Of a stretch of DNA of 64,000 nt, positions 42,720 through 62,197 are shown piece after piece. This stretch comes from Acidimicrobiales bacterium. GTDB taxonomy: Bacteria; Actinomycetota; Acidimicrobiia; Acidimicrobiales; MedAcidi-G1. Where the stretch lies: the NCBI GenBank assembly GCA_022452035.1, contig JAKURV010000001.1, positions 62,001 to 126,000 on the forward strand, in the 5' to 3' direction. A program made the position numbers and the translations under genes. The notes under the pieces were generated by a model, which worked only from the letters and a program-made list of their open reading frames with translations, was not told the DNA's origin and did not search any database. Each line of letters begins with the position of its first letter. The stretch's first letter is position 1.

Positions 42720-43357
42720 TCGGCCTCGTCATCGAGGAGCCAGGCCGGGGCCCCGTCGACCTGCTCGGGAGGCACGATGCCGGCCCGCCGGTCGTCCGGG
42801 ATGTGCTGGCGAACCCGGGCCAGGGTCCCGTGGGCCGGCAGGTCGCCGTCGTCCCCCGCTCCGCCGCGGGGAAGTGGGCTACGACCCGCCCGGAGGTCGG
42901 CTACCACCTCGTCCAGGGTGTCGATATCGGCCCGATGGAAGTAGCGGTGGTTCACGGTGAAGCACGGCGCCTCGGAGCAGGCGGCCACGCACTCCACATC
43001 CTCCACGGTGAACAGGCCGTCGTCGCTGGTTCCGCCGGCCTTAACCCCGAGGGACCCCTCCGCGTGGTGGAGCAGTTCCTCGCCCCCCAGAAGTTGACAC
43101 GACACGTTGGTGCAGACACCGACCAGGTACCTGCCTACGGGATGGAACTTGAACATTTCGTAGAAACTGCCGGTCCCCAGGACCTCGGCTGCCGTGGTTC
43201 CGGTCATCTCGGCGATCTCGGCCATGGCCGCCGGGGTGACCCACCCCTCCTGCTCCTGGGCCAGGTGGAGCAGCGGGATGACCGCCGACCGGGGACGGGG
43301 GTAACGGTCGATGACTTCGCGGGCCGTCCGCTCGTTCGCCGGGTCGAAGTAACTCAC
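42716..43357 (-). CDS. nuoE: Complex I subunit NuoE (2Fe-2S, 24-kDa type), 14-subunit set
   Basis: NuoE (213 residues) binds cluster N1a. The four ligands lie in VCTNVSCQLLGG and VECVAACSEAPC. The helical N-terminal part (AVIPLLHLAQEQEGWVTPAAM) is typical. An acidic, Pro-rich C-terminal stretch of about 60 residues follows the thioredoxin-like domain. GTG 43355-43357 overlaps the nuoD stop (GTGA). Confidence 0.95.
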   Translation of the reverse strand: MSYFDPANERTAREVIDRYPRPRSAVIPLLHLAQEQEGWVTPAAMAEIAEMTGTTAAEVLGTGSFYEMFKFHPVGRYLVGVCTNVSCQLLGGEELLHHAEGSLGVKAGGTSDDGLFTVEDVECVAACSEAPCFTVNHRYFHRADIDTLDEVVADLRAGRSPLPRGGAGDDGDLPAHGTLARVRQHIPDDRRAGIVPPEQVDGAPAWLLDDEAE

Positions 43358-44703
43358 CGGTCCACCTCACCCATGATGGGATCGACCGACGAGATGACGG
43401 CCACGCCGTCAGCGATCAGGCCCCCCTCCATGAGGTGGGGCAGTGTCTGGAGGTTCACGAAGCTCGGACCCCGGATGTGCATCCGGTACGGCTTCGGTCC
43501 ACCGTCCGACACCAGGTAGCAGCCCACTTCGCCACGTGGGGATTCCACGGCGGCGTAGGTTTCGCCCTCGGGAACGTGGAAGCCCTCGGTGAAAATTTTG
43601 AAGTGGTGGATCAGGGCCTCCATCGACTCGTCGATGCGGGACCGGGGCGGCGGGGTGACCTTCTTGTCCTGGGCCCGGAAGTCGCCTCCAGGCATGAGAT
43701 CCAGAATCTGCTCGACAATGCGGAGCGACTCCCGAATCTCGTTCAGGCGAATGGCGTACCGGTCAAAGGCGTCGCCGTGAGTGCCCACGATGACGTCAAA
43801 CTCGACCTCGTCGTAAGCCAGGTACGGCTCGTCGCGACGTAGGTCCCAGGCGTATCCCGTGGAGCGGAGGATGGGACCGGTAGCCGAAAGGGCCAGTGCC
43901 TCGGCCGGGTTCATCACTCCCACCCCCTGGAGGCGCTCCCGAAAAATGGGTTGGCCGGTCAGCAGAGTGTCGTATTCGTCGAGTCGTGGTGGGATCAGGT
44001 CCAGCAGGCGCCGCACGTCGGCCTGCCAACCCTCCGGGAGGTCAGCAGCCACCCCGCCAGGACGGATGTAGTTGTGGTTCATCCGAAGGCCGGTGACCTT
44101 TTCGAAGAAGCGCAGCACCTCTTCACGCTCTCGCCAGCCGTAGATCATCATCGACACGGCGCCGAGGTCCATGCCATTGGTGGCCTGGAACAACAGGTGG
44201 GAGGAGACCCGGTTTAGCTCGCACATAAGCATCCGGATCCAGGTGGCCCGGGGTGGAACCTCCAGGTCGAGCAGGTTCTCGACAGCTAGAGAGAACGCCA
44301 GCTCGGAGAACAGAGGCGCTGCGTAGTCCATGCGGGTGACGTTGGTCGGTCCCTGGAGGTAGGTCAGATCCTCAGCTGTCTTTTCCATTCCGGTGTGGAG
44401 GTACCCGATGACCGGCTTGGACCGCAGCACGGTCTCCCCCTCCATCTCCAGCAGGAGGCGTAGCACCCCATGGGTGGACGGGTGGGAGGGACCCATATTC
44501 AGGATCATCCGCTGGTCGGAGGTATCTCCGGCTGGCGGGTCGTCCGGGCCTCCGGCTAGGACGGCCGCCTCGGCCTCGCTCAGCCGGAGCACGGCACTGG
44601 TCTCGTCGCGGCGGCAAACGCGTTCGGCTGACCCCAGGTCGGTCCCGGTGCCGGAGTCCGGTCCGCTGTCGGCGTCTACCAGTTCGTCGGCCATACCACT
44701 CAC
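43354..44703 (-). CDS. nuoD: Complex I subunit NuoD, 14-subunit set, canonical quinone-site Tyr
   Basis: NuoD (about 449 residues) has a disordered, acidic 60-residue N-terminus and then the conserved core MGPSHPSTHGVLRL. Counting from GTG 44701-44703, the quinone-site Tyr is present (Tyr127 in TRMDYAAPLF, codon 44323-44325). The NDUFAF7-type Arg position is Thr104 (GYLHTGMEK, codon 44392-44394). The C-terminal DPIMGEVDR is normal. ATG 44692-44694 is an alternative start. GTG overlaps the nuoC stop. Confidence 0.95.
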   Translation of the reverse strand: MSGMADELVDADSGPDSGTGTDLGSAERVCRRDETSAVLRLSEAEAAVLAGGPDDPPAGDTSDQRMILNMGPSHPSTHGVLRLLLEMEGETVLRSKPVIGYLHTGMEKTAEDLTYLQGPTNVTRMDYAAPLFSELAFSLAVENLLDLEVPPRATWIRMLMCELNRVSSHLLFQATNGMDLGAVSMMIYGWREREEVLRFFEKVTGLRMNHNYIRPGGVAADLPEGWQADVRRLLDLIPPRLDEYDTLLTGQPIFRERLQGVGVMNPAEALALSATGPILRSTGYAWDLRRDEPYLAYDEVEFDVIVGTHGDAFDRYAIRLNEIRESLRIVEQILDLMPGGDFRAQDKKVTPPPRSRIDESMEALIHHFKIFTEGFHVPEGETYAAVESPRGEVGCYLVSDGGPKPYRMHIRGPSFVNLQTLPHLMEGGLIADGVAVISSVDPIMGEVDR

Positions 44704-45239
44704 CGGACTGCCGGGGCGTCGCGGAACTGGACTGGGATCCTGCCCATGGCAACGTCGCGTCGTAGCGGATGACCCTCCCAGTCTTCCGGTAGGAGGATGC
44801 GGGTCGGATCGGGGTGGCCGTCGAAGGCCACCCCCACTAGGTCCCAGGCCTCGCGTTCCATGGCCTCGGTGCCGGGGAATAGGTCGAAGAGCGATGGCAC
44901 GACCGGGTCGTGCTCCGGCACCTGGGTGCGGAGTCGGACCCGGCACCCCGAGGCGTGGGAAATCAGGCTGGCCACCACCTCGAACCGTTCAGGTTCGATA
45001 CCGGGTGGGAGGTCGGTGCGCCCCGGGTGGGCTGAGTAGTCCACGGCGACCAAGTCAATGGCCATACAGAAGCCGTCGTCCCGGCAGGCCTTCACCGTCT
45101 CCAGCCACCGGTCGACCGGGGGGTGCAGGACGGTCTGGCCTCCGGATTCGACTACCGGGACACCCCAGGCCGTCGGGACAACTGGGTCGTCCTTCGCCGT
45201 CGGCGTCGCATCCGTTCCGTCCGGGGTCGGATCGCTCAC
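44700..45239 (-). CDS. nuoC: Complex I subunit NuoC, 14-subunit set
   Basis: NuoC (179 residues) carries [20 protein letters not shown], close to the family signature, and [17 protein letters not shown] at the end. It is shorter than the NuoC of the other set and lacks its acidic insertion. GTG 45237-45239 overlaps the nuoB stop (GTGA). Confidence 0.93.
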
Positions 45240-45835
45240 CTGGGAGCCAACTCCACCGGCTGGTCGGTAGCCGGCTGCGCCTCGACCTGGATTGCCGCCC
45301 CCCCGCCGTTGGTATCGCGTCGGCGGGTCAGCTCACCGCTCTGGATGCTGTCGTGCAGGGTGAGGATGGCGTGCATCAGGGTTTCGGGGCCAGGCGGGCA
45401 GCCAGGCGCGTAGACGTCCACCGGAACCACCTGGTCGACGCCCTGGACGATGGCGTAGTTGTTGAACATGCCCCCGCTGGAGGCGCATACACCCATGGAG
45501 ATGACCCACTTGGGCTCCATCATCTGGTCGTAGATCTGGCGGAGGATGGGCGCCATCTTCTGGGAGACCCGTCCGGCCACGATCATCAGGTCGGCCTGGC
45601 GGGGGGAGGCCCGGAAGACCTCCATCCCGTAGCGGGCTAGGTCGTAATGAGCAGCACCGGTGGCCATCATCTCGATGGCGCAACAGGCCAAACCAAAGGT
45701 TGCCGGCCAACAGCTGCGGGCCCGCGACCACTTCACAAGGTCCTCGACGCGGGAGGTGATGAAGTTGTGCTCGAGGCCCTCCAGGCCGTCGCTCAGCACG
45801 TCGCCCACGTCGCCCACGCCGGGGATCCGGGTCAT
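45236..45835 (-). CDS. nuoB: Complex I subunit NuoB, 14-subunit set
   Basis: NuoB (199 residues) has all four N2 ligands: the CC pair in [15 protein letters not shown], the Cys of [18 protein letters not shown] and the Cys of [14 protein letters not shown] 40-residue C-terminal extension is Thr/Gln/Glu-rich. ATG 45833-45835 overlaps the nuoA stop (ATGA). A longer in-frame extension lies within nuoA and is not real. Confidence 0.96.
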
Positions 45836-46308
45836 CAGGCGGCCTCTCCCCCACGTCCTTCGAGACCGACCTGGCGGATGCCGGGACGATGGATGGTGGA
45901 GGCGCTGGTGCGAGACGCTGACACTGCCTCGGTGGCTCGGAGCCTCTTCAGGGGCCCCCACTCAAGGGCTCCGTTGCCGATCAGGTAGATGAACGACTCG
46001 AAGAGAGCTGCCGAGAACAGCAGGATGGCGCCCAGGCCGAACAGGCCCAAGCCCCGGTGGGCGATGGCCCACGGGTAGAAGAAAATGATCTCAATATCGA
46101 AAACGATGAAGATCATCGCCACCAGGAAGAACCGCACCGGGAATCTCTCCGGGGTCTCTCGGCCGGGGATGATCCCGCACTCGTAGGGGGCAGCCTTGCG
46201 GTCGTTGGGCCGGCGGGGGGCCAGCAGCCGTGACACCACAAAGCTGAGGGCGGCGAAGAGGAACGCCAGGGCCAGGAGCACGACAATGGGCAAGTACTGA
46301 CCGAGCAC
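45835..46308 (-). CDS. nuoA: Complex I subunit NuoA, 14-subunit set (first nuo gene of the set)
   Basis: NuoA (157 residues) has three helices and the conserved [20 protein letters not shown] loop followed by [20 protein letters not shown] choose GTG 46306-46308 because GGGAGAG lies 6 nt upstream; a TTG 5 codons earlier (46321-46323) is possible. A 35-residue soluble tail extends beyond the usual end. It lies 47 bp after the 336-residue membrane protein, so co-transcription with the quinol-oxidising cluster is likely. Confidence 0.93.
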
Positions 46309-46355
46309 GTCACGCTCTCCCAACTCGGGTTGCTACCAGAGCATCAGCCACGGGA

Positions 46356-47366
46356 TCAGGCCTTCGCTGTCTCGAACTCCTCACGCCGGGCCATCAACTC
46401 CTTGTCTCGGACGTGGAGCCAGTAGCAAAGGGCGAGGAAGATCAGGAGGGAGCCGATGGTGACCAGGGCCGGCCTGAGGCGCACCCAACCGAGGTCGCGG
46501 ATCATGACCACTGAGACCACCGGCTCGTCGGGGTCGACGACCGGGCGGGGCGGCGCCTCACCGGCAACCGTCGGCTGATACAGGACCCCCTGGAGCTGCA
46601 CCACGGTGTAGCGCGTCGGGTGGGTCAGGCGGGCCGAGCTAGCAATCCAGTGGGTGATCCGGTCTAATCGGTTCGGGTCGTCTTTCAGTTCTGGCTTGCC
46701 GCCCGTGGTGTAGGCATCCAGGAGCTTGTAGTCGACGGAACTGGCGAAACCAAGGTCTGGGTGGGCCAGTACGTCGGCCGCCGCCTGGGCCTGGGCATCT
46801 CCTGCCTCCGTGGTGGCCAGCAGCCTCCACGGACCCATGGACCGCAGGCCGGCGGCGTCGGTGACGTTTCGGGCTACGGCGGCTAGCTCGGACCGCGTAA
46901 CGATCTCGTTGCGAAGTTGCCGATCGGCTCGTAGAACAGCCAGTTGATCGGCCGATAGATCTGGTTTATCGGCGGCCGTGGGCAGCGTGTCGAACTCGGC
47001 AACGGCCGCCGTGTCGTTTGAGGCCACTACTAGTTCGTAGGCGCTGGGTATCTCGTCGGAATTCGGCAGCATGCGGGCCAACTCGAGGCCGCTGGCTCCC
47101 AGGTCGCCCACGTTTATGTCGACCGTCTTCCAACTGGGATCGTCTCCCTTCCAACCTGAGCCGTACATCCACCAAGCGCTGCCCAGAATGACCATCCAGC
47201 CCATGAGGGCGGCTGTCGCCAGCAGAGTGGCCAGCCGGACGCCGGAGTTGGTGGCCATGATCAGCCAGATCGAGCCCATGAGCACGGCAAAGCCCGTGGC
47301 GACGACCAGAATGCCGCGGATCTCTGGGTCCCAGGCCAGCCCGGCCAGCGTGACCAGAGCGCCCAT
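46356..47366 (-). CDS. Membrane protein of unknown function, between the cytochrome and nuo genes
   Basis: I do not recognise this 336-residue protein. It has two or three N-terminal helices (GILVVATGFAVLMGSIWLIM and LATLLATAALMGWMVILGSAWW), a soluble domain of about 200 residues without Cys or heme motifs, and one C-terminal helix (LVTIGSLLIFLALCYWLHVRD) followed by a charged tail. The soluble part is Ala/Leu/Asp-rich. The gene starts at ATG 47364-47366, overlapping the diheme cytochrome stop (ATGA), so it is probably an accessory or assembly subunit of the quinol-oxidising complex. That role is inferred only from position. Confidence 0.75.
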   Translation of the reverse strand: MGALVTLAGLAWDPEIRGILVVATGFAVLMGSIWLIMATNSGVRLATLLATAALMGWMVILGSAWWMYGSGWKGDDPSWKTVDINVGDLGASGLELARMLPNSDEIPSAYELVVASNDTAAVAEFDTLPTAADKPDLSADQLAVLRADRQLRNEIVTRSELAAVARNVTDAAGLRSMGPWRLLATTEAGDAQAQAAADVLAHPDLGFASSVDYKLLDAYTTGGKPELKDDPNRLDRITHWIASSARLTHPTRYTVVQLQGVLYQPTVAGEAPPRPVVDPDEPVVSVVMIRDLGWVRLRPALVTIGSLLIFLALCYWLHVRDKELMARREEFETAKA

Positions 47367-48562
47367 CAGAGACTCCTCTCGTACGCCACGATGGCGGCGA
47401 TCTGCTCCGGGGTAAGGATGCGGGACCGGACGACTGTGCCGATCACGTCGAGGTCGTCGACCCGTCCGCCGAACCCGGGCATCCCTCCGGTTCCTGCACG
47501 AGCGTTGCCGTAACCAACCCCAACCTCGGACCCGCTCCGGATGAAATCTTCTTGGCTGGCTGGCGTCGAAAAGTGGGTCTCGACACCGGCCAGGCTCGGG
47601 CCGACATGTCCAGCACCGGGCTGATACCCGGTGAGGATCCCAGTCTCAGCGAGAAGTGGCCATTCGGAAATGAGTTGAGCGGTCGCCGTGTTACTGGACG
47701 CACCGTAGGAAAAGCCAGGGGTGTGGCACCGAGCGCAACTGTTAGCACCCTGGGCAGCCGGGTTATTGAAAAGTAACCCTCCGTAGGCAAGGTAGTCACT
47801 GCTCGTCGGATCAGCTGCCTGGGCGAGCCAGGCGTCGACGGCTACGGCAATGTCGGCGGAATCGGTGAGTCCAGAATCGCGTTCTGTCACGATGGCCCTC
47901 GCTCCAGCCTCCAGGCCGCTGGCCACCTCAGCAGCAGCGTCCTCAGGCGACAACTGGATCGAGCGCAGGTAAACGATTAGTTGGTGAACCTGCTGGGAAG
48001 TCATCGGCCCGCCGCCAGCAAGGCCCCACGCAGGCATAGGACTCCCTGGCCGGCCGTAGTTGAGGATGTGTTCCACTTCCGACTCGCTGAAGCGACTCAG
48101 CACCGTGGTTAGTGCCGGCGCTTTCCAGTCCACCTGAGCTACGAAACCGCCATCGGCACCAGCGATAGTAAAGGAGGCCACGCCACCCACCCCGCCCGGG
48201 CCGTGACAGCTAACGCAAGCCTCCTCGAAGCTATTCGCCCCGCGCTTTTCGAACCGTTTGACCCATCCGTATGCGGCGTTGTCCTGACGAGCCGGTTCCA
48301 TCAACCAGTAGAGGGGCAGAACCAGTGAGACCACGGTCAGCGTCACCAGCGACCAGGCCAGGTTCCGGTCCAGTAGGCGGGTTTCCAGCAGATCGTCGTC
48401 GGCGTGACTGATCCGATTGGGTGCTAACTCGATCTCGGAGCCGACCTCGCGTTTGCCGATCCGGAAGTTGAACAGGAGGTAGATGCCCATCCCGACCAGG
48501 ACAATGGACGCCAGGACCCAGCCGACGGTCCGCTGCGTGCTTGCGAGGAGGAGTGTGGTCAT
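47366..48562 (-). CDS. Membrane-anchored diheme cytochrome c of the Rieske/cytochrome b cluster
   Basis: This 398-residue protein has two N-terminal helices (VGWVLASIVLVGMGIYLLF and SLVTLTVVSLVLPLYWL). Two class-I cytochrome c domains follow, with CVSCH at residues 116-120 and CARCH at 276-280. Met-containing segments (SPMPAWG and GGMPGFGG) are likely sixth ligands. It is the probable electron acceptor from the Rieske protein, in the role QcrC has in actinomycetes, but its two-helix N-terminal anchor differs from QcrC. It starts at ATG 48560-48562, 33 bp after the Rieske gene. Confidence 0.88.
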   Translation of the reverse strand: MTTLLLASTQRTVGWVLASIVLVGMGIYLLFNFRIGKREVGSEIELAPNRISHADDDLLETRLLDRNLAWSLVTLTVVSLVLPLYWLMEPARQDNAAYGWVKRFEKRGANSFEEACVSCHGPGGVGGVASFTIAGADGGFVAQVDWKAPALTTVLSRFSESEVEHILNYGRPGSPMPAWGLAGGGPMTSQQVHQLIVYLRSIQLSPEDAAAEVASGLEAGARAIVTERDSGLTDSADIAVAVDAWLAQAADPTSSDYLAYGGLLFNNPAAQGANSCARCHTPGFSYGASSNTATAQLISEWPLLAETGILTGYQPGAGHVGPSLAGVETHFSTPASQEDFIRSGSEVGVGYGNARAGTGGMPGFGGRVDDLDVIGTVVRSRILTPEQIAAIVAYERSL

Positions 48563-48595: not shown

Positions 48596-49465
48596 CTAGT
48601 GGCCGTCTGCCTGGCCTATGCAGTTCGGGCCCTCGGCCTCCTGGCCGGTGGTGTTGGTCCCGATGGGTGGGCCCTGAACGATGGTGCCTGTGTCTACGGT
48701 CAGGACGCCGTTGGATACCGAAGTGGCAAAGCGGTCCATGCCGCGGGGGGCCGGGCCGCCCCGCTTCTCGCCTACCTGGTTGTATTGCGAACCGTGGCAG
48801 GGGCACTCGAACCACTGCGATGACACGCAGTTTGGGACCCGACATCCCAGGTGTGGACACTTCTGGTAGAGGGCGACAACACCGGCCTCGAATCCACCTT
48901 CAACGCCGGCCGTCATTCCTGCGAGTTCGGGAGCCGAGTAGGTGGCCCGAGCCTTCTCCACGGCACCGTTCGGGTAGGCGGTGATCCACATGCGACCCTG
49001 AGGCTTGTAGAGGAAGCCGTTGCTGGTCTCAATGTCGGCTAGCAGTTCCACGATGTTGCCGACCTTGATCTTGGAACCGAAGCCACTTACGCCCTGGGGC
49101 CAAAGAAAGGCGAGGGAGGCTCCGCCGAATCCCGACAGGCCTAGGCCCATCATGCCGACCAGGCTGCGGTTGAAAAACTGGCGACGACTGACTCCTAGGG
49201 CCATTGGATCGGGAGCCACGAATGGCTCGAGCGGGGCCGACTCGACGGTGACCACATCGTCCGAGCGCGCGGCCGCGGCGGCGGCTTCCACCTCGCGACC
49301 GGTCGGGGCCGACGAACTCTGTCCGGCGAGCACTGGGTTGGCCCTGTCCCGCTTCCGGGTCTCCCGCGAAAGGCCGGAAGCGCTGCGATCACGCCGCTTC
49401 GAGGCGCTGACTAATACGACAGCAGCTAGAACGACCAGCAGTACGACAGCGATGGCGACGCCCAT
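48596..49465 (-). CDS. qcrA: Rieske 2Fe-2S protein of the quinol:cytochrome c oxidoreductase
   Basis: This 289-residue Rieske subunit has CPHLGC (C203, H205, C208) and CPCHGS (C221, C223, H224), giving the 2Cys/2His cluster with a C208-C223 disulphide. One helix opens the protein (VAIAVVLLVVLAAVVLV). A 70-residue linker follows, then SRRQFFNRSLVGMMGLGLSG, a twin-arginine-like motif ahead of a second hydrophobic segment. Two anchors with a long linker are unusual for Rieske proteins, which usually have one or three. It starts at ATG 49463-49465 and follows the subunit IV-like gene by 55 bp. Confidence 0.93.
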   Translation of the reverse strand: MGVAIAVVLLVVLAAVVLVSASKRRDRSASGLSRETRKRDRANPVLAGQSSSAPTGREVEAAAAAARSDDVVTVESAPLEPFVAPDPMALGVSRRQFFNRSLVGMMGLGLSGFGGASLAFLWPQGVSGFGSKIKVGNIVELLADIETSNGFLYKPQGRMWITAYPNGAVEKARATYSAPELAGMTAGVEGGFEAGVVALYQKCPHLGCRVPNCVSSQWFECPCHGSQYNQVGEKRGGPAPRGMDRFATSVSNGVLTVDTGTIVQGPPIGTNTTGQEAEGPNCIGQADGH

Positions 49466-49520: not shown

Positions 49521-50258
49521 TCACAACTCGAAGAAGACGCCAGAGTTCCACGGGAAGACGAAGTTGAAACCAGGACCTCGGAAGAACGATCCGATCATGA
49601 CTAGAACGGCCCAGAACATGAGGTGAACGCTCATTAAGGAGATGGCGAACTTGCGGTCTTCAGGGCGCTTCGACGGGTTCTTGTCGATGTAGGGCGCCAG
49701 GATGAGGAGGAACAGGCCAATGCCGGGGATGGTCACACCAGCCACCATGGGATGGAACATGGTGAGGAGTTCCTGCAGACCAAGGAAGTACCACGGGGCC
49801 TTCGACGGGTTCGGTGTCTTGTTGAAGTCAGCCAGTTCCAGCAACGGAGCGTTCACGACGATCGAAAAGAGCAGCAGGAACGCCGTGACGGCCAAAGCGG
49901 CTAGGAACTCGGCCAGCAATAGGTGGGGCCAGACATGGACCTTGTCCTGCGGGGTGGCCTTGGTGTCCTGGATGGAGCCCGACTTGACGACGGTCAACAG
50001 TCGCTGGTTGTGCCCATCAGGACCACTGCCCCCAGTTGGGACGGCCGGTCCGCCGGTCGGCGGGGCCGGCAGGTCGGAGGCCGGCGTCCCCCGGTCCAGG
50101 AGGTGTCCGGGGATCTTCTCATCGACGGCTGGGGCGTCACCGGCTGGGGCCTCATCAGCCGGCGCTTTGGCCGACGGCGTATCGCCACTCGCATCGGACT
50201 GTGCTTTGGCCCGGGCGGCCTCTGCCCTCTTCCGGAGATGTTCAGGAATCTCGGTCAT
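49521..50258 (-). CDS. Cytochrome b C-terminal half (b6f subunit IV-like)
   Basis: The 245-residue protein has a soluble N-terminal region of about 108 residues starting MTEIPEHLRKRAEAARAKA and containing a related IPGHLLDRG at 49-57. Three helices follow (LAEFLAALAVTAFLLLFSIV, MVAGVTIPGIGLFLLILAPY, LMSVHLMFWAVLVMIGSFF). The Qo-site PEWY position reads APWY (residues 154-157, SKAPWYFLGLQELL). A separate subunit IV is the b6f/Firmicutes layout, not the fused QcrB of most actinomycetes. It starts at ATG 50256-50258, 16 bp after the b6-like gene. Confidence 0.9.
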   Translation of the reverse strand: MTEIPEHLRKRAEAARAKAQSDASGDTPSAKAPADEAPAGDAPAVDEKIPGHLLDRGTPASDLPAPPTGGPAVPTGGSGPDGHNQRLLTVVKSGSIQDTKATPQDKVHVWPHLLLAEFLAALAVTAFLLLFSIVVNAPLLELADFNKTPNPSKAPWYFLGLQELLTMFHPMVAGVTIPGIGLFLLILAPYIDKNPSKRPEDRKFAISLMSVHLMFWAVLVMIGSFFRGPGFNFVFPWNSGVFFEL

Positions 50259-50274: not shown

Positions 50275-51057
50275 CTACAGCGGGCCCGAGATGCCGCCGT
50301 CCTTGCGGACCCGCCAGAAGTGAATCGCCAAGAAGATGACAAGCACGAACGGGAGCATCAGGACGTGGAGGGTGTACCAGCGGAGCAGGGTGTCGGTGCC
50401 GATCTCGACGCCGCCGAGCAGCACGAACCGGACCTGGTCACCAAACACGGGCGTGAAGCCGATCATGTTCGTTCCCACCGTCACCGCCCAGAGGGCCAAC
50501 TGGTCCCATGGGAGTAGGTAGCCGGTGAACGACAGGAGAAGGGTGAACTGCAGCAACATGACTCCGATTACCCAGTTGAACTCCCGGGGCGGTTTGTAGG
50601 CCCCGTGGTAGAAGACCCGGGCCATGTGAAGGAATACGGACAGCACCATGAGGTGGGCCGCCCATCTGTGCATGTTGCGCACCAGCAGACCGAAACCGAC
50701 CGCGGTTTGCAGGGTCTGGATATCGGACCATGCCATGGCGGTAGTCGGCCGGTAGAAGAACATCAGGAAGATGCCGGTGACGGTCAGGTGAATAAACAGG
50801 AAGAAACTCAGGCCACCCAGGCAAAGGGTGTAACTGACCTTCACTGCGTGCCGTTTCACCTTCACGGGGTGGAGGTGGTAGAGGACGCTATTCATGATCA
50901 CGTAGGACCGGTTACGGGGGCTGTCGTTGTATCCCTTTCGGAAGATCGACCCGGGGCGGAAGATGGAGCTCCAGGCCTGAGAACCCTGGACCTGGTCGGT
51001 CAGCTGGCCCAACTGTTCCTGTAGTGCCTGTCCGGCTGGCTTCTTGTCGTCAGCCAC
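50275..51057 (-). CDS. Cytochrome b6-like subunit of a quinol-oxidising Rieske/cytochrome b complex
   Basis: This 260-residue, four-helix cytochrome b has two His pairs at H130/H144 (HRWAAHLMVLSVFLH) and H231/H246 (HVLMLPFVLVIFLAIH). The spacing of 14 and 15 is that of cytochrome b6. C79 in YTLCLGGLSFFLF aligns with b6 Cys35, which binds the extra heme ci covalently. PPREFNWVIGV and the RKDGGISGPL end are b6-like. I start it at GTG 51055-51057, with AGGAAAG about 8 nt upstream; the in-frame extension upstream is weak. It presumably oxidises menaquinol. Confidence 0.92.
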   Translation of the reverse strand: MADDKKPAGQALQEQLGQLTDQVQGSQAWSSIFRPGSIFRKGYNDSPRNRSYVIMNSVLYHLHPVKVKRHAVKVSYTLCLGGLSFFLFIHLTVTGIFLMFFYRPTTAMAWSDIQTLQTAVGFGLLVRNMHRWAAHLMVLSVFLHMARVFYHGAYKPPREFNWVIGVMLLQFTLLLSFTGYLLPWDQLALWAVTVGTNMIGFTPVFGDQVRFVLLGGVEIGTDTLLRWYTLHVLMLPFVLVIFLAIHFWRVRKDGGISGPL

Positions 51058-51100: not shown

Positions 51101-51517
51101 TCAGCCCAACCGCATCCCGTAGCTGTATCCGTGGGTGTTGGTGCGCTGGTGGGCGTCGCCATCGGCCGGCGCGTCGCTGCACTTACCGAGGATGATCACG
51201 CCGGTGGGACAACGGTCGACGCACAGGGCACACCGGGTGCACACGTCGTCGTCGATGGTGAAGATCACGTGGTCGCTGGGATCGGTACCCGGTTGTTCGG
51301 TACCGACCGAGTCGGCCACGGCGTCCGGGGAAACCATGTGGATGCACTTCCATGGGCAAATGTCGACACAGCCCTCGCACATGATGCATTCGGACTGGTC
51401 GATGTGGATGAACGTCTTAACCCGGTTGTTGGTCTCCATCCAGTCGGTGTCGACCTCGCGCAGTACGTAGTCGTCAACGAAGGTCGGGTGTGGCGGGTTG
51501 GCGTCGGTGACGCTCAT
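51101..51517 (-). CDS. 2x[4Fe-4S] ferredoxin-like protein encoded with the cytochrome b complex
   Basis: The 138-residue soluble protein has CIMCEGCVDICP (C44/C47/C50/C54) and CTRCALCVDRCP (C93/C96/C99/C103), two classical 4Fe-4S motifs. A 38-residue spacer separates them and His-rich residues occur near the C-terminus. It starts at ATG 51515-51517, overlapping the upstream membrane protein stop (ATGA), and precedes the b6-like gene by 43 bp. The position suggests that it delivers electrons to, or takes them from, the quinol complex or the 11-subunit complex I. It could instead be a free ferredoxin; its redox partner is not deducible. Confidence 0.88.
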   Translation of the reverse strand: MSVTDANPPHPTFVDDYVLREVDTDWMETNNRVKTFIHIDQSECIMCEGCVDICPWKCIHMVSPDAVADSVGTEQPGTDPSDHVIFTIDDDVCTRCALCVDRCPTGVIILGKCSDAPADGDAHQRTNTHGYSYGMRLG

Positions 51518-51969
51518 GCTTTCGCCCCCTCCTGGACCAGCGGACGGCCGTACTCGGAGGTGGGCGTCGGGGCGTCCTTGTCCTTGCCCCGGTCCTGCCA
51601 CTGCTTCCACATCACGACGTTGCCGCCCAGCGCGATGCCGTAGATGGCCACGGCCACCAGGTCCCGGATGACGCGGTAGGGCATGGTGAACGGCAGGGCC
51701 CACTCGACGATTCCCCGGTCACCGGTCCACGGGAGTTGTGGGCCGACCAGGTAGCGGTCGGGGCGCCAGTTCAGTTCACTGTCGGCCCAGGTCAGCCACT
51801 GGTGGGGGACCACGCCGTAGACCCACCACAGGACGAAGAAGACGTAGGTGGCGAAGAGCATCGCCTCCCCCCACGTGAACGCCTTGTCGACCGGGGTCCG
51901 TCTGCGGTACCAGTCGACGCCACCGAGCAGCACCAACAGGACGACGATGGAGGTCATGAAGGCGACCAT
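51514..51969 (-). CDS. Small membrane protein of unknown function, first gene of the respiratory supercluster
   Basis: I do not recognise this 151-residue protein. It has three predicted helices: FMTSIVVLLVLLGGVDWY, MLFATYVFFVLWWVYGVV and VIRDLVAVAIYGIALGGNVV. A Trp/Pro-rich loop (HQWLTWADSELNWRPDRY) lies between helices 2 and 3. It has no Cys and few candidate heme ligands. It starts at ATG 51967-51969 with GAGGAGG 10 nt upstream. Being coupled to the ferredoxin gene, it may be that protein's membrane anchor. The Rex-type operator lies 34 bp upstream of its start. Confidence 0.75.
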   Translation of the reverse strand: MVAFMTSIVVLLVLLGGVDWYRRRTPVDKAFTWGEAMLFATYVFFVLWWVYGVVPHQWLTWADSELNWRPDRYLVGPQLPWTGDRGIVEWALPFTMPYRVIRDLVAVAIYGIALGGNVVMWKQWQDRGKDKDAPTPTSEYGRPLVQEGAKA

Positions 51970-52337
51970 CGATTTAGGTCCTCCTCGGTGGCTCCGGCGG
52001 ACTTCGTGAAATAGTGCACAAGGCGTGCGGGCACCATGCTAACGCTTGGATCTCCGTCGCGACGCCCTGACCAACGGCCCGGACGAAGACGACCGGAACA
52101 TCGATCCCGATGCCGGTTTCTAGCATGACATTGGGGGACCACGGACCTCGTCGAAACGCGCCGGAAAGTGGGTCGGAGCCCGACCGACCACCCGGTCGAC
52201 ACTCCTTCGGACCGCTCCGGTTCTGCGCCCGCGAACCTATGGTCCCCGCTAACCTGCCCGTGTCCCAGACCGGACGACCCCCGTCCCGAGGGTCCCGCCA
52301 CCACCACCGGACCCGAACGACTCCTCCGGAGCCCAAG
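51970..52337. other. Divergent control region between the respiratory supercluster and the cytochrome c gene
   Basis: This 368-bp intergenic region should hold promoters in both directions. It contains the ribosome-binding site for the minus-strand gene (near 51980-51988), the Rex-type operator at 52003-52021, and the ribosome-binding site for the plus-strand TTG start (GGAG near 52328). An open frame continues from 52110 to the cytochrome c gene, but its codon content (many Arg/Pro/Gly) looks like random GC-rich sequence. I could not assign -35/-10 boxes. Confidence 0.6.
52003..52021 (-). promoter_or_regulatory. Rex-type operator in front of the respiratory supercluster
   Basis: The plus strand reads TTCGTGAAATAGTGCACAA; the complement is TTGTGCACTATTTCACGAA. 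This is an imperfect palindrome close to the Rex consensus (TTGTGAA, six bases, TTCACAA). It shares TTGTGCAC, one variable base, then ATTTCAC with the site in front of rex in this same window. It sits 34 bp upstream of the ATG at 51967-51969, where binding would block transcription initiation or elongation. Confidence 0.72.
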
Positions 52338-53096
52338 TTGACCGAGATCCCCGAACACCTCCTGAAGCGGTCCAAAGCCGCCAAGGCCAAGGCGACCGGC
52401 ACTCCCGACGAGGCCACGGAGGCATCCACCGAATCGGCAGCTGCCCCGGCTGCCCCGGCTGCCCCGGCTGCCCCGGCGACACCTACTCCCGTCGTCGAGG
52501 AACTACCTGCTCCGCTTGCCCCCTACGTGGCCGCCGCCCAGACCCGCAAGAAAATCCCCTGGTGGGCGGCCAGCGGCCTCCTGCTTCTACCCATCTGGGC
52601 CATCTCCTACGTCGGCACCCTGGAACGCCCCCCGCAGGAAGCCACCGGGGTCATGGCCGAGGGGCTACACGTCTATGAGTCCCGCTGCGCCAGTTGCCAC
52701 GGAGCCACCGGCGCTGGCGGGAGCGGCCACGCCCTGGCGAACGGCGAGGTGCTGGCCACCTTCCCGACCGCGGCGGCCCACATCGAGTGGGTAGCCAAGG
52801 GCTCCGACAGTTTCGGTCTCGGCAACCCTTACGGCGCCGCCGACCAGGCTCGCATCGTGGAGGGCGGTATGCCCGGCTGGGCCGACGTCCTGACGACCGA
52901 GGAGCTGGTCGGTGTGGTGCTCCACGAGCGGGCCCGTCTGAGCGGTTCCAAAGACGACGCGGCGCTGGCCGAGGCCCTTGACCACGCGATCCACAGTGGT
53001 GAGTTGGACCTGCAGGGCCACCTCGACCCGACCACAGTCACCGTCGACGAGATCCAGGCCATCCTGGACTCCGTCGCCCACGACGACGGACACTGA
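52338..53096 (+). CDS. Membrane-anchored monoheme cytochrome c with TEIPEHLLKR N-terminus
   Basis: The 252-residue protein begins at TTG 52338-52340 (TEIPEHLLKRSKAAKAKA), 6 nt after GGAG. I choose this start because the same motif begins the subunit IV-like protein across the divergent region. An Ala/Pro linker (residues 36-47) is followed by one helix (WWAASGLLLLPIWAISYVG) and a class-I cytochrome c domain with CASCH at 117-121. A Met in VEGGMPGWADVL is the likely sixth ligand. It probably carries electrons from the b6f-like complex to an oxidase not encoded in this window. Confidence 0.87.
   Translation: MTEIPEHLLKRSKAAKAKATGTPDEATEASTESAAAPAAPAAPAAPATPTPVVEELPAPLAPYVAAAQTRKKIPWWAASGLLLLPIWAISYVGTLERPPQEATGVMAEGLHVYESRCASCHGATGAGGSGHALANGEVLATFPTAAAHIEWVAKGSDSFGLGNPYGAADQARIVEGGMPGWADVLTTEELVGVVLHERARLSGSKDDAALAEALDHAIHSGELDLQGHLDPTTVTVDEIQAILDSVAHDDGH
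52440..52475 (+). repeat. 9-bp tandem repeat, 4 perfect copies, in the cytochrome c linker
   Basis: The unit GCTGCCCCG is repeated four times without change and encodes (Ala-Ala-Pro)4 in the flexible linker before the membrane helix. It is a slippage-prone, in-frame microsatellite rather than a CRISPR or mobile-element repeat. Confidence 0.9.
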
Positions 53097-56134: not shown

Positions 56135-57406
56135 TCAAGACAGGTCGGCGACTACCGCCTCGGCAGCTGCCCCCGCCACCTCCGCCGTCTCGTCCACCAC
56201 GGCATCAGAGTGGGCGAGGCTGGGAAACATCGCCTCATAGGCCCCGGGAGCTAGGGCCACGCCCCTTTCCAGGAGGGAGTGAAACACCATCGGGTAGAGG
56301 CCGTTCTCGGCCAGAGCCTTCGCCTCGTCGAAATCGGACGGCGCCACGTCGCCGAAGTAGATGCCGAGCAGGGAACCCACCCGCGGGAGTACTGAGGCCA
56401 ACCCAGCGGTGGTGAACGCGTCAGCCAGCCCGGCGGCCAACCGGGCTGTGGTCGCGGCCAGTCGATCGAAGGCTCCGTCGTCGAGGAGTTCCAGCGTGGT
56501 CCTCCCTGCCGCCATAGCCAACGGATTCCCAGACAGGGTGCCTCCCTGGTACACGCCTCCCAGCGGCGCGAGGTGCTCCATCACGTCCCACCGGCCTCCG
56601 AAGGCTCCGACCGGGAGGCCCCCGCCGATGACCTTGCCGAAGCACCACAAGTCGGGGGTGACACCGAATCGCTCGGCCGCCCCTCCCCGAGCCAGGCGGA
56701 ACCCGGTAATGACCTCGTCGAAGACGAGCAGGGCCCCGGCCTCGTCGCAAGCCGACCGCAGACCTTCAAGGAACCCGGGAGCCGGCGCGATAAGGCCCAT
56801 GTTGGCGGCCACCGGCTCGACAATGACCGCGGCCACCGTGTCGTCCACATCGGGCAACACGTTGTAGGGAGCGACGATGGTGTCGGCCACCGCGCCGGCA
56901 GTGACCCCGTCGCACCCGGTCAGGCCCTGGTTAGCCACGCCGCTGCCTCCGGCTGCCAGTAGGGCGTCGCCGTGGCCGTGGTAACAACCGGCAAACTTCA
57001 CGATGCCCGACCGGCCAGTGGCGCCCCGGGCTAGGCGGATGGCCGACATGGTGGCCTCGGTACCCGACGAGACAAACCGGACCGACTCCAGTCCGTCGAT
57101 GCGGTCCACCACCATCTCGGCCAAGACCACTTCGGCTTCGGTGGGGGCACCGTAGGAGGTCCCGTTGGAGGCAGCACGGGCGATCGACTCAAGGACTGCC
57201 GGGTGGGCGTGGCCCAGGATGCCCGGGCCGTACGACTGCACGTAGTCGATGTAGCGCTTCCCGTCGGCGTCCCACACGTACGGGCCGTCGGCCCGCTCCA
57301 CAAAGTACGGGGTGCCACCCACCGAACCGAAGGCCCTGACCGGCGAGTTGACGCCTCCCGGGATGACCCGGACGGCACGTTCGAAGAGGAGCCGGTTGGC
57401 GTCCAT
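56135..57406 (-). CDS. hemL: Glutamate-1-semialdehyde 2,1-aminomutase
   Basis: HemL (423 residues) makes 5-aminolevulinate from glutamate-1-semialdehyde. Features are the start MDANRLLFERAVRVIPGGVNSPVRAF, the PLP-contact DEVITGFRLARGG and the PLP lysine in WCFGKVIGGGLPVGAFGG (near residue 258). The ATG at 57404-57406 is preferred over the TTG one codon earlier. It is the last gene of the rex-hem run, 7 bp after hemB. Confidence 0.96.
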   Translation of the reverse strand: MDANRLLFERAVRVIPGGVNSPVRAFGSVGGTPYFVERADGPYVWDADGKRYIDYVQSYGPGILGHAHPAVLESIARAASNGTSYGAPTEAEVVLAEMVVDRIDGLESVRFVSSGTEATMSAIRLARGATGRSGIVKFAGCYHGHGDALLAAGGSGVANQGLTGCDGVTAGAVADTIVAPYNVLPDVDDTVAAVIVEPVAANMGLIAPAPGFLEGLRSACDEAGALLVFDEVITGFRLARGGAAERFGVTPDLWCFGKVIGGGLPVGAFGGRWDVMEHLAPLGGVYQGGTLSGNPLAMAAGRTTLELLDDGAFDRLAATTARLAAGLADAFTTAGLASVLPRVGSLLGIYFGDVAPSDFDEAKALAENGLYPMVFHSLLERGVALAPGAYEAMFPSLAHSDAVVDETAEVAGAAAEAVVADLS

Positions 57407-57413
57407 CAAGGGT

Positions 57414-58397
57414 TCAGCCCTGCAGGATCTCGGCGGCCCGGCCAGCCAGGTAGGTCAGAATGAAGTCGGCCCCCGCCCGGCGGATGGCCAGGAGGTGCTC
57501 CATGCCCACCGCGTCGCCATCCAACCAGCCGTTGGCGGCCGCCGCGGCCACCATGGCGTACTCGCCGCTCACGTGGTAAGCGGCCAACGGCACGTCGACC
57601 GAAGCCCGGACGTCGGTGATGACGTCCAGGTAGGCCAGTGCCGGCTTCACCATGACCATGTCGGCGCCTTCCTCCAGGTCGGCACCCACCTCGACCATGG
57701 CCTCCCGGGCGTTGGGCGGGTCCTGCTGGTAGCCACGTCGGTCCTCTCCCCCGACGATCTCGACGTCGACGGCGTCTCGGAACGGTCCGTAGAGGGCCGA
57801 GGCGTACTTGGCGGCGTAGGCCAGGATCGCCGTCTGGTGGTGGCCGGCGTCGTCCAGGGCGGTCCGGATGGCCCCGACCTGGCCATCCATCATCCCGGAC
57901 GGGGCAGTCACGTCGACCCCGGCGTCGGCCTGGGCCACCGCGGCCCGTGCGTAGAGCTCGAGCGTGGCGTCGTTGTCCACCGAACCATGGCCGTCCAGGA
58001 CCCCGCAGTGGCCGTGGTCGGTGTACTCGTCGACGCACAGATCAGCTAGGAGAACCATGTCGTCGCCAAGGTCGTCTCGAAGGTCCCGGAGGGCGACCTG
58101 GACGATCCCGTCGGGGTTCCAGGCCTCGGAGCCCACGGCGTCCTTTCGCTCGGGGATCCCGAAGAGGATGACGCCCGGGACGCCGAGGTCGTGCAGGGCG
58201 GATACCTCAGCCCGCAGGCTGGCCCGGGTGTGCTGAAACACCCCGGGCAGCGAAGCCACCGGCTGGGGCTCGTTGATGCCCTCCCGGACGAACAGGGGGG
58301 CCACAAGGTCATCGACTGAGAGGCGGGTCTCGGCCACTAGGCGGCGGAGGGCAGCGGTTCGGCGCAGGCGACGGGGGCGCGAGACGGGGAAGGTCAC
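57414..58397 (-). CDS. hemB: Delta-aminolevulinic acid dehydratase (porphobilinogen synthase)
   Basis: HemB (327 residues) condenses two 5-aminolevulinates to porphobilinogen. The metal-site segment reads ADLCVDEYTDHGHCGVLDGHG (C121, D123, C131). It keeps two of the three zinc-type Cys and has Asp in the other position. Schiff-base lysines lie in LAYAAKYASALYGPF and MVMVKPALAYLDVI. It starts at ATG 58395-58397, 18 bp after hemD. Confidence 0.96.
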   Translation of the reverse strand: MTFPVSRPRRLRRTAALRRLVAETRLSVDDLVAPLFVREGINEPQPVASLPGVFQHTRASLRAEVSALHDLGVPGVILFGIPERKDAVGSEAWNPDGIVQVALRDLRDDLGDDMVLLADLCVDEYTDHGHCGVLDGHGSVDNDATLELYARAAVAQADAGVDVTAPSGMMDGQVGAIRTALDDAGHHQTAILAYAAKYASALYGPFRDAVDVEIVGGEDRRGYQQDPPNAREAMVEVGADLEEGADMVMVKPALAYLDVITDVRASVDVPLAAYHVSGEYAMVAAAAANGWLDGDAVGMEHLLAIRRAGADFILTYLAGRAAEILQG

Positions 58398-58415
58398 CCC
58401 CCGAGCCTACGGACG

Positions 58416-59156
58416 TCAGCCCGGAGGCGACGAGGCAGCAGCCCAGGCCAGCACGGAGTCCACCAGCCCGGCCACCGAGTGGGGTTCGGCCTCGACGACC
58501 GTGAACCCAAGCTGCCGTGCGACGGCGGCGCTGATCGGGCCGATGCAGGCCGCGGTAGCAGGCGTCGGGCCGCCGGCAAGATCGTGGTACCTGCGGACGG
58601 TCGACTGGGCGGTGAAGGTGACCAGGTCGGCTGACCGGGCCTGTTCGCGTATCTCCGGGTCCACATCCGGGACCACGTTCCGATAGGCGACCACGACGTC
58701 GACCTCCCATCCAGCGTCCCGGAGCCCGTCGGGCAGGACGTGGCGGGCCGTCTCGGCCCGAGCCAACAGGACGCGTCCGGTTCCGTCGGATGGGGGGAAG
58801 GCTTCCAGCAGACCCTCGGCCACCGCCCGGTCGGGGATCAGGTCGACCGGGTGTCCGGCCTCCAACAGCGGTTGGGCAGTCTTGGGTCCGATGGCGGCCA
58901 GGCGGGCCATGGTCGGCCTGGCCAACCCGTCGGCCACTCTCCGGGCCCCGTTGGGTGAGGTCACGACGATCCAGTCGTAGCGATCGGCCCGGGCCAGGGC
59001 GGCTGATAGGGCCTCCCCACCGTCCGCCGACTCCTCGATGGAAACCACCGGCAACTCGACCACCTTGGCCCCGTGGTCAGCCAGCGCTGTCGACAGGCTG
59101 CCTGCCTGGTCGGTGGCCCGGGTCACGACCACCGTGCGACCGATTAGCTGACTCAT
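58416..59156 (-). CDS. hemD: Uroporphyrinogen-III synthase
   Basis: HemD (246 residues) cyclises hydroxymethylbilane with inversion of ring D. The family is poorly conserved, but RTVVVTRATDQAGSLSTAL at the start, DWIVVTSPNGARRVADGL and VTFTAQSTVRRYHDL, AACIGPISAAVARQLG are characteristic. Position between hemC and hemB supports the call. ATG 59154-59156 overlaps the hemC stop (ATGA). It is a stand-alone HemD without a fused methyltransferase. Confidence 0.92.
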   Translation of the reverse strand: MSQLIGRTVVVTRATDQAGSLSTALADHGAKVVELPVVSIEESADGGEALSAALARADRYDWIVVTSPNGARRVADGLARPTMARLAAIGPKTAQPLLEAGHPVDLIPDRAVAEGLLEAFPPSDGTGRVLLARAETARHVLPDGLRDAGWEVDVVVAYRNVVPDVDPEIREQARSADLVTFTAQSTVRRYHDLAGGPTPATAACIGPISAAVARQLGFTVVEAEPHSVAGLVDSVLAWAAASSPPG

Positions 59157-60046
59157 CCGGCCTCCATCAGCCGGATGCCGCCGCGATCGTCGAGAAGGTG
59201 ACGGGCTACAGCTCGGCCCAACCTCTCTCCATCGACTGACTGGCGTTGCTCGCGAATCAGCACCGAACCATCGGAGGAGGAGAGGGCACCGATGAGCACC
59301 ACCTCGTCACCGTCCAGTACGGCGTGGGCGGCGATCGGGAGGTCACAGCCTGCGCCCAACTCGGCCAGGAAGGCCCGCTCGGCGTCCACGGCCCGGCGGG
59401 CCACCGGGTCCTCCACGGCCTTTAGGACCTCGCCTACGTCGACGTCACCGGAGCGGCATTCGACGGCCAGCGCCCCTTGGGCTACCTGGGGTAGCAGGAC
59501 CGTCGGGTCGAGGCGATCGACGATGTCGGGCACCAGTCCCAGCCGGTCCAGGGCGGCGGCGGCCACCACTACGGCGTCAAACCCCTCCGCCTTGGACAGC
59601 CGTGTCTCAATGTTGCCCCGCAGCCCCGAGAAGGCCAGATCGGGGCGTAGGTGGGACAGGTGGGCCCGACGCCGGATGGACCCGGTGGCCACCGTGGCCC
59701 CTGGTCCCAGGTCGGCCCACCGGCAACCCACTAGGGCGTCGCGGGCGTCGGCCCGCTCGGGCACGGCGGCCAGCACCAGGCCGTCGGGCGTGGCGGCTGG
59801 CAGGTCCTTGGCCGAGTGGACAGCTACATCGGCCCGTCCGTCGAGCACCGCGGCCTGGACCTCCTTCACAAAGACCCCCTGTCCCCCCATCTCATCTAAC
59901 GGGGTGACCTGGTCGCGGTCTCCGGCGGTCTCCACGACTACCGGTTCGAGAGTGACGTCGGGGAGGACGGTGGCCAGCAGCTCGGCCAGCCGGTCGACCT
60001 GCCAACGGGCCAACGCGCTTCCCCGGGTGGCTGCCCGGATGCGCAC
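59153..60046 (-). CDS. hemC: Porphobilinogen deaminase (hydroxymethylbilane synthase)
   Basis: HemC (297 residues) polymerises four porphobilinogens. It has RAATRGSALARWQVDRLAE at the start, the catalytic Asp segment VHSAKDLPAATPDGLVLAAV, SIRRRAHLSHLRPDL, and the Cys that carries the dipyrromethane cofactor in LAELGAGCDLPIAAHAV. It starts at GTG 60044-60046, 16 bp after hemA. Confidence 0.96.
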   Translation of the reverse strand: MRIRAATRGSALARWQVDRLAELLATVLPDVTLEPVVVETAGDRDQVTPLDEMGGQGVFVKEVQAAVLDGRADVAVHSAKDLPAATPDGLVLAAVPERADARDALVGCRWADLGPGATVATGSIRRRAHLSHLRPDLAFSGLRGNIETRLSKAEGFDAVVVAAAALDRLGLVPDIVDRLDPTVLLPQVAQGALAVECRSGDVDVGEVLKAVEDPVARRAVDAERAFLAELGAGCDLPIAAHAVLDGDEVVLIGALSSSDGSVLIREQRQSVDGERLGRAVARHLLDDRGGIRLMEAG

Positions 60047-60062
60047 GGCGCCCGCCTCTGTC

Positions 60063-61322
60063 CTAGAGGTCGAAGAGGTCGCGTAGGGCCTCGGCCAACC
60101 GTTCGCCGCGGGCTGAGCCGGCGGCGTCCTTCATCCGGACCGTCGGCTCGTGCAAGAGCTTGCCCACGATCCCGGCAGCCAGTGCCTCCACGGCCTCCTT
60201 CTGGCGGGGATCCAGATCACCCAGCCGAGCGGCCAGGCGCTCCAGTTCGCCAGCCCGTACCTCCTCGCCACGGTTCCGGAGGCTGGACACCAGAGGGGCC
60301 ACCGACCGGGCCGTTGACTCGTCGACGTAGCGGTCCAACTCGGCGTCCACGATGGCCTGTACGGCGGTGATCTCGCGCTGGCGTTCTCGGATGCCAGCCT
60401 CGGCGAAGGCTCGCAGGTCGTCCATATCCAGGAGCGTCACGCCGTCGATCTCGCCGGCCGTCGGGTCCACGTCGCGGGGCACCGCGATGTCCACGACGAG
60501 GAGATTCCGTCCGTCGCGCCGACCGACCACGGTAGCCAGGTCTCCGTGCTCCAGGATTACGGCCGACGCTCCGGTGGAGGTCAGGAGCACGTCCACCGTG
60601 GCCAGGTGCCGGGGGAGATCATCTAGGCGGACCGGTGTCCCACCAAGGCGTTCGGCCACGTCGACGGCCCGCTCCCAGGTGCGATTGGCGACCAGGATCC
60701 CGGCCACACCACCGCTGTGAAGGGCACGGGCCAAGCCCTCACCCATCTCACCGGCCCCCACCACCAGTACCTGGCGGCCTTCCAGGCCTCCGAGACGCTC
60801 GGTGGCCATGGCCACTGCGGCCTGGGAGACCGACGTGATGTTCCGGGAGATTGCAGTATCGGTCCGGACCCGCTTCCCCACCTCGAGGGCGTGGCGAAAC
60901 AGTGGGTTCAGGACCGGGCCGACCGAGTCCTCGGTAGCCGCCGTTTCCCACGCGCTGCGTACCTGCCCAAGAATCTCGTGCTCGCCCAGCACGGCCGAGT
61001 CCAGGCCGGAAGCCACTGAGAACAAGTGGCGAGCCGCGTCGGCGTCGTAGAGGCCGGTCAGATAGTCGGAGAACTCCTCGGGCGCTACGTGGGAGGACTC
61101 GGCGAAGAAGTCTCGGATGTCCTGATAGGCGCCGTGGAACTTCTCGGCGAAGGCGTAGACCTCAATCCGGTTGCAGGTCGACAGGACGACGGCCTCGGTG
61201 ACGTGCTCGCGCGAGCCCAGGTCGGCCAGCGCCTTGGGCAGGCGGGATGCCGGGACCGTCATCCGCTCCAGTAGGTCGAGCGGCACGGTGCGGTGGTTCA
61301 GACCAACTACGACGACCGACAA
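60063..61322 (-). CDS. hemA: Glutamyl-tRNA reductase
   Basis: HemA (419 residues) reduces glutamyl-tRNA to glutamate-1-semialdehyde, the committed step of C5 haem synthesis. VVVVGLNHRTVPLDLLER opens the protein. The catalytic Cys is in AVVLSTCNRIEVYAF, and the NADPH-binding domain has QVLVVGAGEMGEGLARAL. The start is TTG 61320-61322 with AGGAG 9 nt upstream. The 173-bp gap from rex holds a 9-bp hairpin (arms 61434-61442 and 61448-61456, one G-T pair) of unknown role. Confidence 0.95.
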   Translation of the reverse strand: MSVVVVGLNHRTVPLDLLERMTVPASRLPKALADLGSREHVTEAVVLSTCNRIEVYAFAEKFHGAYQDIRDFFAESSHVAPEEFSDYLTGLYDADAARHLFSVASGLDSAVLGEHEILGQVRSAWETAATEDSVGPVLNPLFRHALEVGKRVRTDTAISRNITSVSQAAVAMATERLGGLEGRQVLVVGAGEMGEGLARALHSGGVAGILVANRTWERAVDVAERLGGTPVRLDDLPRHLATVDVLLTSTGASAVILEHGDLATVVGRRDGRNLLVVDIAVPRDVDPTAGEIDGVTLLDMDDLRAFAEAGIRERQREITAVQAIVDAELDRYVDESTARSVAPLVSSLRNRGEEVRAGELERLAARLGDLDPRQKEAVEALAAGIVGKLLHEPTVRMKDAAGSARGERLAEALRDLFDL

Positions 61323-61495: not shown

Positions 61496-62179
61496 CTATC
61501 CGGCAACCCGACCCATGATGGGGTCGTCGTCCGAACGGCGGTGTTGGTGATAACCGAGGATCTGGAGCTCGGTGGCCAAGTCGACCTGGCGAAGGCCGAC
61601 GTGGCCGGGCACGACGACGACGGCCGGCGCGAAGTTGAGGATGGATCGGATCCCGGCGGCTACTAAGCGGTTGGCGGCCTCTTGGGCGGCATGGGCCGGA
61701 GTGGCCACGATGCCCACAGTGCTCCCAGTCTCAGTTACCAGGGTCCCGAGGTCGTCCACCGAACGTACGACCTTGCCGGCGATTCGTCGGCCGACCACTG
61801 CCGGGTCGGCGTCGACCAAGCCAGCCACCGGGAACCCGCCGGCCACGAAGCCGTCGTAGCTGCTGAGGGCCCGTCCTAGGTTGCCGACGCCCACGATGAT
61901 CACCGGGTTGGGTTCGTCGCCTCCCAGGACCAGGGAAATCTCGGTGATCAGGTGGTCAACGTCGTAGCCCACCCCGCGGGTCCCGTGGGCGTGGAGGTAG
62001 GACAGGTCTTTGCGGACATTGGCCGCGTTCACCCCGGCCAAATCGGCCAGTTCCACCGACGACACCGTCTCCACCCCCGCCTCGGCCCGGTCGACCAGGC
62101 CCCGGAGATAGAGGGGCAGGCGGGCAACGGTGGCCCCGGGAATGGGCTCGCTCGGTTCCGATTCTGCGACTGCCGTCAT
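61496..62179 (-). CDS. rex: Redox-sensing transcriptional repressor Rex
   Basis: Rex (227 residues) senses NADH/NAD+ and represses respiratory genes when NADH is low relative to NAD+. The N-terminal winged helix is visible (VARLPLYLRGLVDRAEAGVE, ELADLAGVNAANVRKDLSYL). The Rossmann domain has VIIVGVGNLGRALSSYDGF and the C-terminal swapping helix follows. It starts at ATG 62177-62179. A matching operator lies 19 bp upstream, so autoregulation is likely. In Streptomyces rex is likewise linked to hemACD. Confidence 0.96.
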   Translation of the reverse strand: MTAVAESEPSEPIPGATVARLPLYLRGLVDRAEAGVETVSSVELADLAGVNAANVRKDLSYLHAHGTRGVGYDVDHLITEISLVLGGDEPNPVIIVGVGNLGRALSSYDGFVAGGFPVAGLVDADPAVVGRRIAGKVVRSVDDLGTLVTETGSTVGIVATPAHAAQEAANRLVAAGIRSILNFAPAVVVVPGHVGLRQVDLATELQILGYHQHRRSDDDPIMGRVAG

Positions 62180-62197
62180 GACCGGGAATCTAGACGC

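Follow-up and report, generated by a model that had tools for sequence, protein, structure and literature searches.

A widely conserved putative Rex operator ahead of a quinol-oxidising and complex I gene cluster in Acidimicrobiia

Rex of Streptomyces coelicolor was reportedly treated by Brekasis and Paget in 2003, and Rex regulons are said to be the subject of Ravcheev et al. in 2012. In Streptomyces the targets of this repressor include nuoA-N, hemACD and cydABCD (PMC8063818, available part), and the rex operator of Streptomyces avermitilis reads TTGTGCACGCGTTCACAA (PMC5355995, available part). The same text places the S. avermitilis operators between the -35 and -10 elements at rex, nuoA1 and atpI, and downstream of the transcription start at cydA1. 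In Staphylococcus and Streptococcus, Rex is likewise an NADH-responsive repressor, with TTGTGAAW4TTCACAA as its operator in Staphylococcus aureus (PMC2883068 and PMC6018154, as far as their available text goes). Rex control of nuo and of rex-hem is therefore already known in Streptomyces, and what is new is the widely conserved instance described here; a search of the open-licence literature returned no publication on Rex in Acidimicrobiia.

The stretch of DNA analysed, hereafter the window, comprises 64,000 nucleotides of the genome of a marine actinobacterium of the Acidimicrobiales, and all features given by window coordinates lie on its minus strand unless called divergent. As in the Streptomyces regulon, to the extent that the cited sources cover it, a candidate Rex operator is found both before the rex-hem genes and before an operon encoding complex I. 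Unlike in Streptomyces, the nuo genes stand here behind those of a ferredoxin and a bc-type complex, with the operator ahead of these, and next comes a second complex I that lacks NuoE, F and G. The comparison with Staphylococcus and Streptococcus extends to the operator and to the NADH-responsive repressor, whereas the targets given in the available parts of those papers are anaerobically induced or sugar/alcohol-metabolism genes and not a quinol-oxidising and complex I chain.

The putative operator of the respiratory cluster, assigned on position, pattern scans and conservation, is an 18-bp site at 52004-52021, which reads TCGTGAAATAGTGCACAA on the plus strand and TTGTGCACTATTTCACGA in the direction of transcription and is separated by 34 bp from the start of the first gene at 51969. 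Fifteen of its 18 positions are identical to those of the rex operator (ATGTGAAATGGTGCACAA, 62198-62215), which bears out the original prediction of a near-identical rex-type operator 34 bp ahead of the first gene. Read along the direction of transcription, the site differs from TTGTGNANNNNTTCACAA by one mismatch and also matches TTGTGAANNNNTTCACAA, and it has a C at operator position 6 in common with the S. avermitilis rex operator as printed in the available part of PMC5355995. The hexamer TAGCAT (52036-52041), located 14 bp upstream of the operator and invariant in 13 aligned sequences of the genus, is inferred to be the -10 element of the cluster promoter, and from this spacing the operator would cover the first transcribed bases. 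These 13 sequences agree throughout at 14 of the 18 operator columns, compared with 37 of 117 columns outside it, and the operator and the preceding block CGTTAGCATGG stand out from the aligned upstream region. Another block, GTGATAGAAAC in the minus direction at about 52115-52130, is conserved at some distance upstream of the cluster promoter and is replaced in deeper lineages by GTGGTAGACCT or alike; it may belong to the divergent gene of a c-type cytochrome (52338-53096).

The gene for the NADH-sensing repressor, rex (61496-62179), matches NF003992 at 1.9e-87. Its product contains PF06971 (N-terminal winged helix) and PF02629 (Rossmann NAD-binding), both over their cut-offs, and the solved Rex proteins 2vt2, 5zz5 and 3ikv are among its eight matches. 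In alignments the DNA-binding domain retains VRKDLSY and GTRGVGY, and A104 and Y108 correspond to Ala96 and Tyr100, which contact NAD in the Thermotoga protein; the roles of this DNA-binding stretch and of the NAD-contacting Ala and Tyr are those given in the available part of PMC8063818. Between the rex operator and TAGATT (62187-62192) downstream of it lie 5 bp; as only 7 nt separate TAGATT from the ATG, transcripts of rex may lack a leader. Both placements, upstream of TAGATT at rex and after TAGCAT at the cluster, have S. avermitilis counterparts in the available text of PMC5355995. Downstream of rex, on the same strand, follow hemA, hemC and hemD, as in the Streptomyces-type arrangement, and then hemB and hemL (56135-61322 for the five genes). 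A site resembling the rex operator precedes rex in 14 of the 15 rex loci of the genus and, allowing three mismatches, in 19 of 30 wider rex loci against 162 of 4500 shuffles, four of these 30 being genus genomes again. Six MedAcidi-G1-type loci (L152, L155, L156, L158, L159 and L160) have no site in the rex promoter at three mismatches, and autoregulation of rex therefore appears to have been lost in them, although the cluster site is kept.

The cluster opens with a gene (51514-51969) for a 151-aa protein with no Pfam or NCBIfam match, a membrane protein judging by its hydrophobic sequence, followed by genes for a 139-aa ferredoxin-like protein with two 4Fe-4S motifs (51101-51520, the listed open reading frame being over-long) and for a b-type cytochrome of the cytochrome b6/ExtP family (50275-51057, its start corrected to the GTG at 51057). 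Stops in the cytochrome b of relatives were considered as frameshifts and rejected: they fall within the false N-terminal extension, and none is left with the corrected start. Family matches then identify a cytochrome b C-terminal (subunit IV-like) protein (49521-50258), a Rieske iron-sulphur protein (48596-49465) and a c-type cytochrome with two CxxCH motifs (47366-48562). The subunit IV-like protein and the divergent c-type cytochrome have in common the N-terminal motif TEIPEHLxKRxxAAxAKA. After orf336 (46356-47366), which encodes a 336-aa protein without a family match, come the first complex I, with the 14 subunits nuoA-N (30687-46323), and the second, with 11 subunits (nuoA, B, C, D, H, I, J, K, L, M and N; 19992-30540); nuoN and nuoA2, read in their correct frames, match NuoN and NuoA. 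With NuoE, F and G missing and a two-cluster ferredoxin encoded by the second gene of the cluster, the 11-subunit complex I might be fed by ferredoxin. At the end of the run stands the gene for a Methyltransf_28 protein (18938-20053 as listed, the true start being probably further in), which we take to be MidA/NDUFAF7-like; an acetate-CoA ligase gene lies 76 bp past it, preceded by a TAGGGT element in 8 of 9 aligned genomes.

The description of this run as tight, with a single break of 146 bp, holds: lengths were computed for 24 of the 31 junctions that lie between the first gene and nuoN2, the other seven having an unsure downstream start, and 23 of the 24 measure between -23 and +55 bp, the exception being nuoN-nuoA2 with 146 bp. 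The end predicted at about 19992 is indeed reached, but the run continues for some 1 kb to the Methyltransf_28 gene ending at 18938. Gene order from the first gene to nuoF is identical in all 40 of 56 related loci that reach nuoF, except that orf336 was undetected in L092. In the orf336-nuoA gap (31-32 bp) no conserved -10-like element was visible by eye in 11 aligned genomes, and a sigma-70 scan, with no site in either stretch against shuffle means of 0.9 and 1.3, was uninformative. The front part, 21 kb with the ferredoxin, the bc-type complex and the first complex I, has the appearance of a single unit under Rex control.

According to the original prediction the one site could control both complex I sets. 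This looks likely for the ferredoxin, the bc-type complex and the first complex I, and in that form is not supported for the second complex I; of the two places at which strong independent promoters would speak against the prediction, the first, the orf336-nuoA gap at 46.3 kb, has none that we could see, and the second, at 30.6 kb, carries promoter-like elements. In genome alignments and family loci the break (30541-30686) displays two of these, TAGTCT (30610-30615) and TAGGTT (30549-30554), the latter 8 nt before the GTG start of nuoA2. Of 30 family loci, 23 have a TAGGTT 8-9 nt ahead of nuoA2 and the remaining seven, of genus g3, are without it, and in nine aligned genomes of the genus TAnnCT lies about 60 bp upstream of TAGGTT. 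The nuoN-nuoA2 gap of nine genomes also contains conserved TCCGGTAnCCT-like and TCGTTAGGTT-like blocks.

A single Rex operator giving rise to one transcript of about 33 kb, with both complex I sets, would agree with the common strand, with the short gaps, with the full gene order to acs, which all eight fully covered relatives share, and with the number of terminator-like sites in 16500-33000, which is at shuffle level (8 found, shuffle mean 6.1, sd 2.5). We nevertheless consider it unlikely, for the gap varies in length from 109 to 163 bp among nine genomes while the promoter-like elements stay, TAGGTT keeps its distance to nuoA2 in most of the family, and a Rex-like palindrome (at most three mismatches) of its own, superfluous for one transcript, occurs at the nuoA2 promoter in 7 of 30 loci (226 of 6000 shuffles). 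These seven are six genomes of the genus and one contig binned as G031, another genus; at the nuoA2 promoter of the present species there is no Rex-like site, the matrix score being -23.7. The conserved promoter-like elements and the Rex-like site of the sister subclade in this gap suggest that the second complex I is a separate unit, most likely with its own promoter. Rex control at nuoA2 is best read as a gain in the sister subclade, and in the present species Rex control of the second complex I would need read-through. The second nuoB is present twice in G031, and the copy of L174 (G031:C30:8468-8962) is 98% identical to the copy in the window, the L174 contig being either misbinned or transferred.

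Further sites were sought in the draft genome (2.18 Mb in 65 contigs, 96.1% complete). A genome-wide scan with TTGTGNANNNNTTCACAA singles out the cluster site and the rex operator as the only two places within one mismatch, compared with eleven direct targets for S. avermitilis in the available part of the literature. At up to three mismatches the pattern occurs 57 times forward and 51 times in reverse, near the control (53 and 37), and NTGTGAN6TCACAN at one mismatch occurs at 14 places against 9 for its control. In ten 3-kb contexts of the latter, eight sites fall inside an open reading frame of at least 100 aa; the sole perfect palindrome (C40:8325) is also inside one, and at the same time 56 bp before an open reading frame with a methylguanine-methyltransferase domain. 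With loose-pattern counts near controls and 8 of 10 contexts inside open reading frames, additional Rex targets were rejected.

All 14 genus genomes that contain the start of the first gene have the site ahead of it, a count that leaves out the partial L030 and a second G013 row (L031/L027). Of 17 genus genomes, 14 have TTGTGN6TTCACNA at the cluster and at no other place, and the assemblies of the remaining three give no cytochrome b match. Likewise, TTGTGNNNNNNTTCACNA with zero mismatches is found at the cluster in 14 of the 17 and once elsewhere (G003), its reversed control occurring a single time, in G015. The 56 related loci are assigned to Acidimicrobiia, Acidimicrobiales, Acidimicrobiaceae, Microthrixaceae, Candidatus Microthrix or alike, some only to Actinomycetota or marine actinobacterium. 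TGTGN6TTCAC lies before the first gene in 43 of them within 130 bp and in 45 within 400 bp, 11 of the 45 belonging to the genus. The two added loci, L095 and L096, have a perfect palindrome, TTGTGAGAGCATTCACAA, at -223, farther upstream than in other lineages.

The occurrence of rex was compared with that of the site in 50 genomes (L051, L054, L056, L058, L059 and L083 left out), 39 of which have rex over the cut-off. With the 400-bp rule 36 genomes have both, three the site without rex, three rex without the site and eight neither (Fisher p 4.1e-5, or 2.8e-4 with 130 bp, neither corrected for relatedness). The eight, two of which show weak Rex matches below the cut-off, form one clade, so that the joint absence is one event and no statistical proof; the tree, with the 130-bp rule, shows 2 changes of the site and 4 of rex, and of the independent pairs one goes the same way, none the opposite way and three show no difference. 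Rex is present with no site within 400 bp in L094, L097 and L098, and the site is present with no rex found in L061, L071 and L103; the contigs of L061 and L071 stop inside the hem genes that adjoin rex in relatives, and rex may therefore be unassembled there.

The sequence TGTGAN6TCACA, contained in the Rex consensus, is a CRP-type core as well, and one protein of the genome has a Crp-family HTH scoring above the Pfam cut-off, which would suit binding of the cluster site by a Crp/Fnr-family regulator instead of Rex. We regard this as quite improbable, since a near copy of the site stands before rex itself, all eight genomes without rex over the cut-off have Crp-family HTH matches that pass theirs yet no site, and the sequence TTGTGCA...TTCACGA is close to the S. 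avermitilis rex operator (PMC5355995, available part).

In the window, TTGTGAN6TCACAA with up to two mismatches has 2 matches against 0.68 expected, which is not significant, as 15 of 100 shuffles give at least two. A symmetric scoring matrix built from 14 rex operators of the genus ranks the rex operator (28.8 bits) and the cluster site (22.2 bits) at the top of the window, with the next place at 5.0, but the score of the cluster site alone is not decisive because the maximum over 200 mononucleotide-shuffled sequences of 64 kb was 22.3 bits. Even so, a chance resemblance or functionless leftover is hardly credible: the site precedes this gene in every one of the 14 genus genomes and in 45 of the 56 related loci, whereas 2 of the 2351 remaining 400-bp stretches in these loci match.

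Taken together, the data support the view that, in a genome possessing rex, the cluster is headed by a widely conserved Rex-type operator. With a probability of roughly 75%, we hypothesize that 52004-52021 is a genuine Rex operator of the front unit, and that the second complex I is most likely transcribed from a promoter of its own and in this species would be reached by Rex only through read-through. Because the operator stands after the conserved TAGCAT, Rex probably blocks early transcription of the cluster at low NADH, as at cydA in S. avermitilis. When NADH is scarce, a Rex dimer would sit just downstream of the putative -10 element, covering about +8 to +25 provided that the first transcribed base is some 7 nt past TAGCAT, and obstruct RNA polymerase. 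As NADH rises, Rex would be released and the front unit made, with the membrane protein, the ferredoxin, the bc-type complex, the c cytochrome and the 14-subunit complex I, so that oxidation of NADH and of quinol would be raised together, along with haem supply by way of rex-hemACDBL; the direction of this response is taken from the known Rex family. The second operator would control rex, and probably rex-hemACDBL, thereby coupling haem supply to the respiratory chain.

More tentatively, and at somewhat below even odds, Rex of Acidimicrobiia may have been reduced to governing a near two-operator regulon which ties haem synthesis to an ancestral master operon of quinol oxidation and complex I, individual lineages then tuning it by gaining a Rex site at the separate 11-subunit complex I or by losing rex together with the operator. 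The apparent gain of an operator at the second complex I and the joint absence of regulator and site would make this a regulon whose change can be traced from sequence alone. For uncultured marine Acidimicrobiia and their relatives, the finding provides a testable prediction of how the respiratory chain may be adjusted to NADH.
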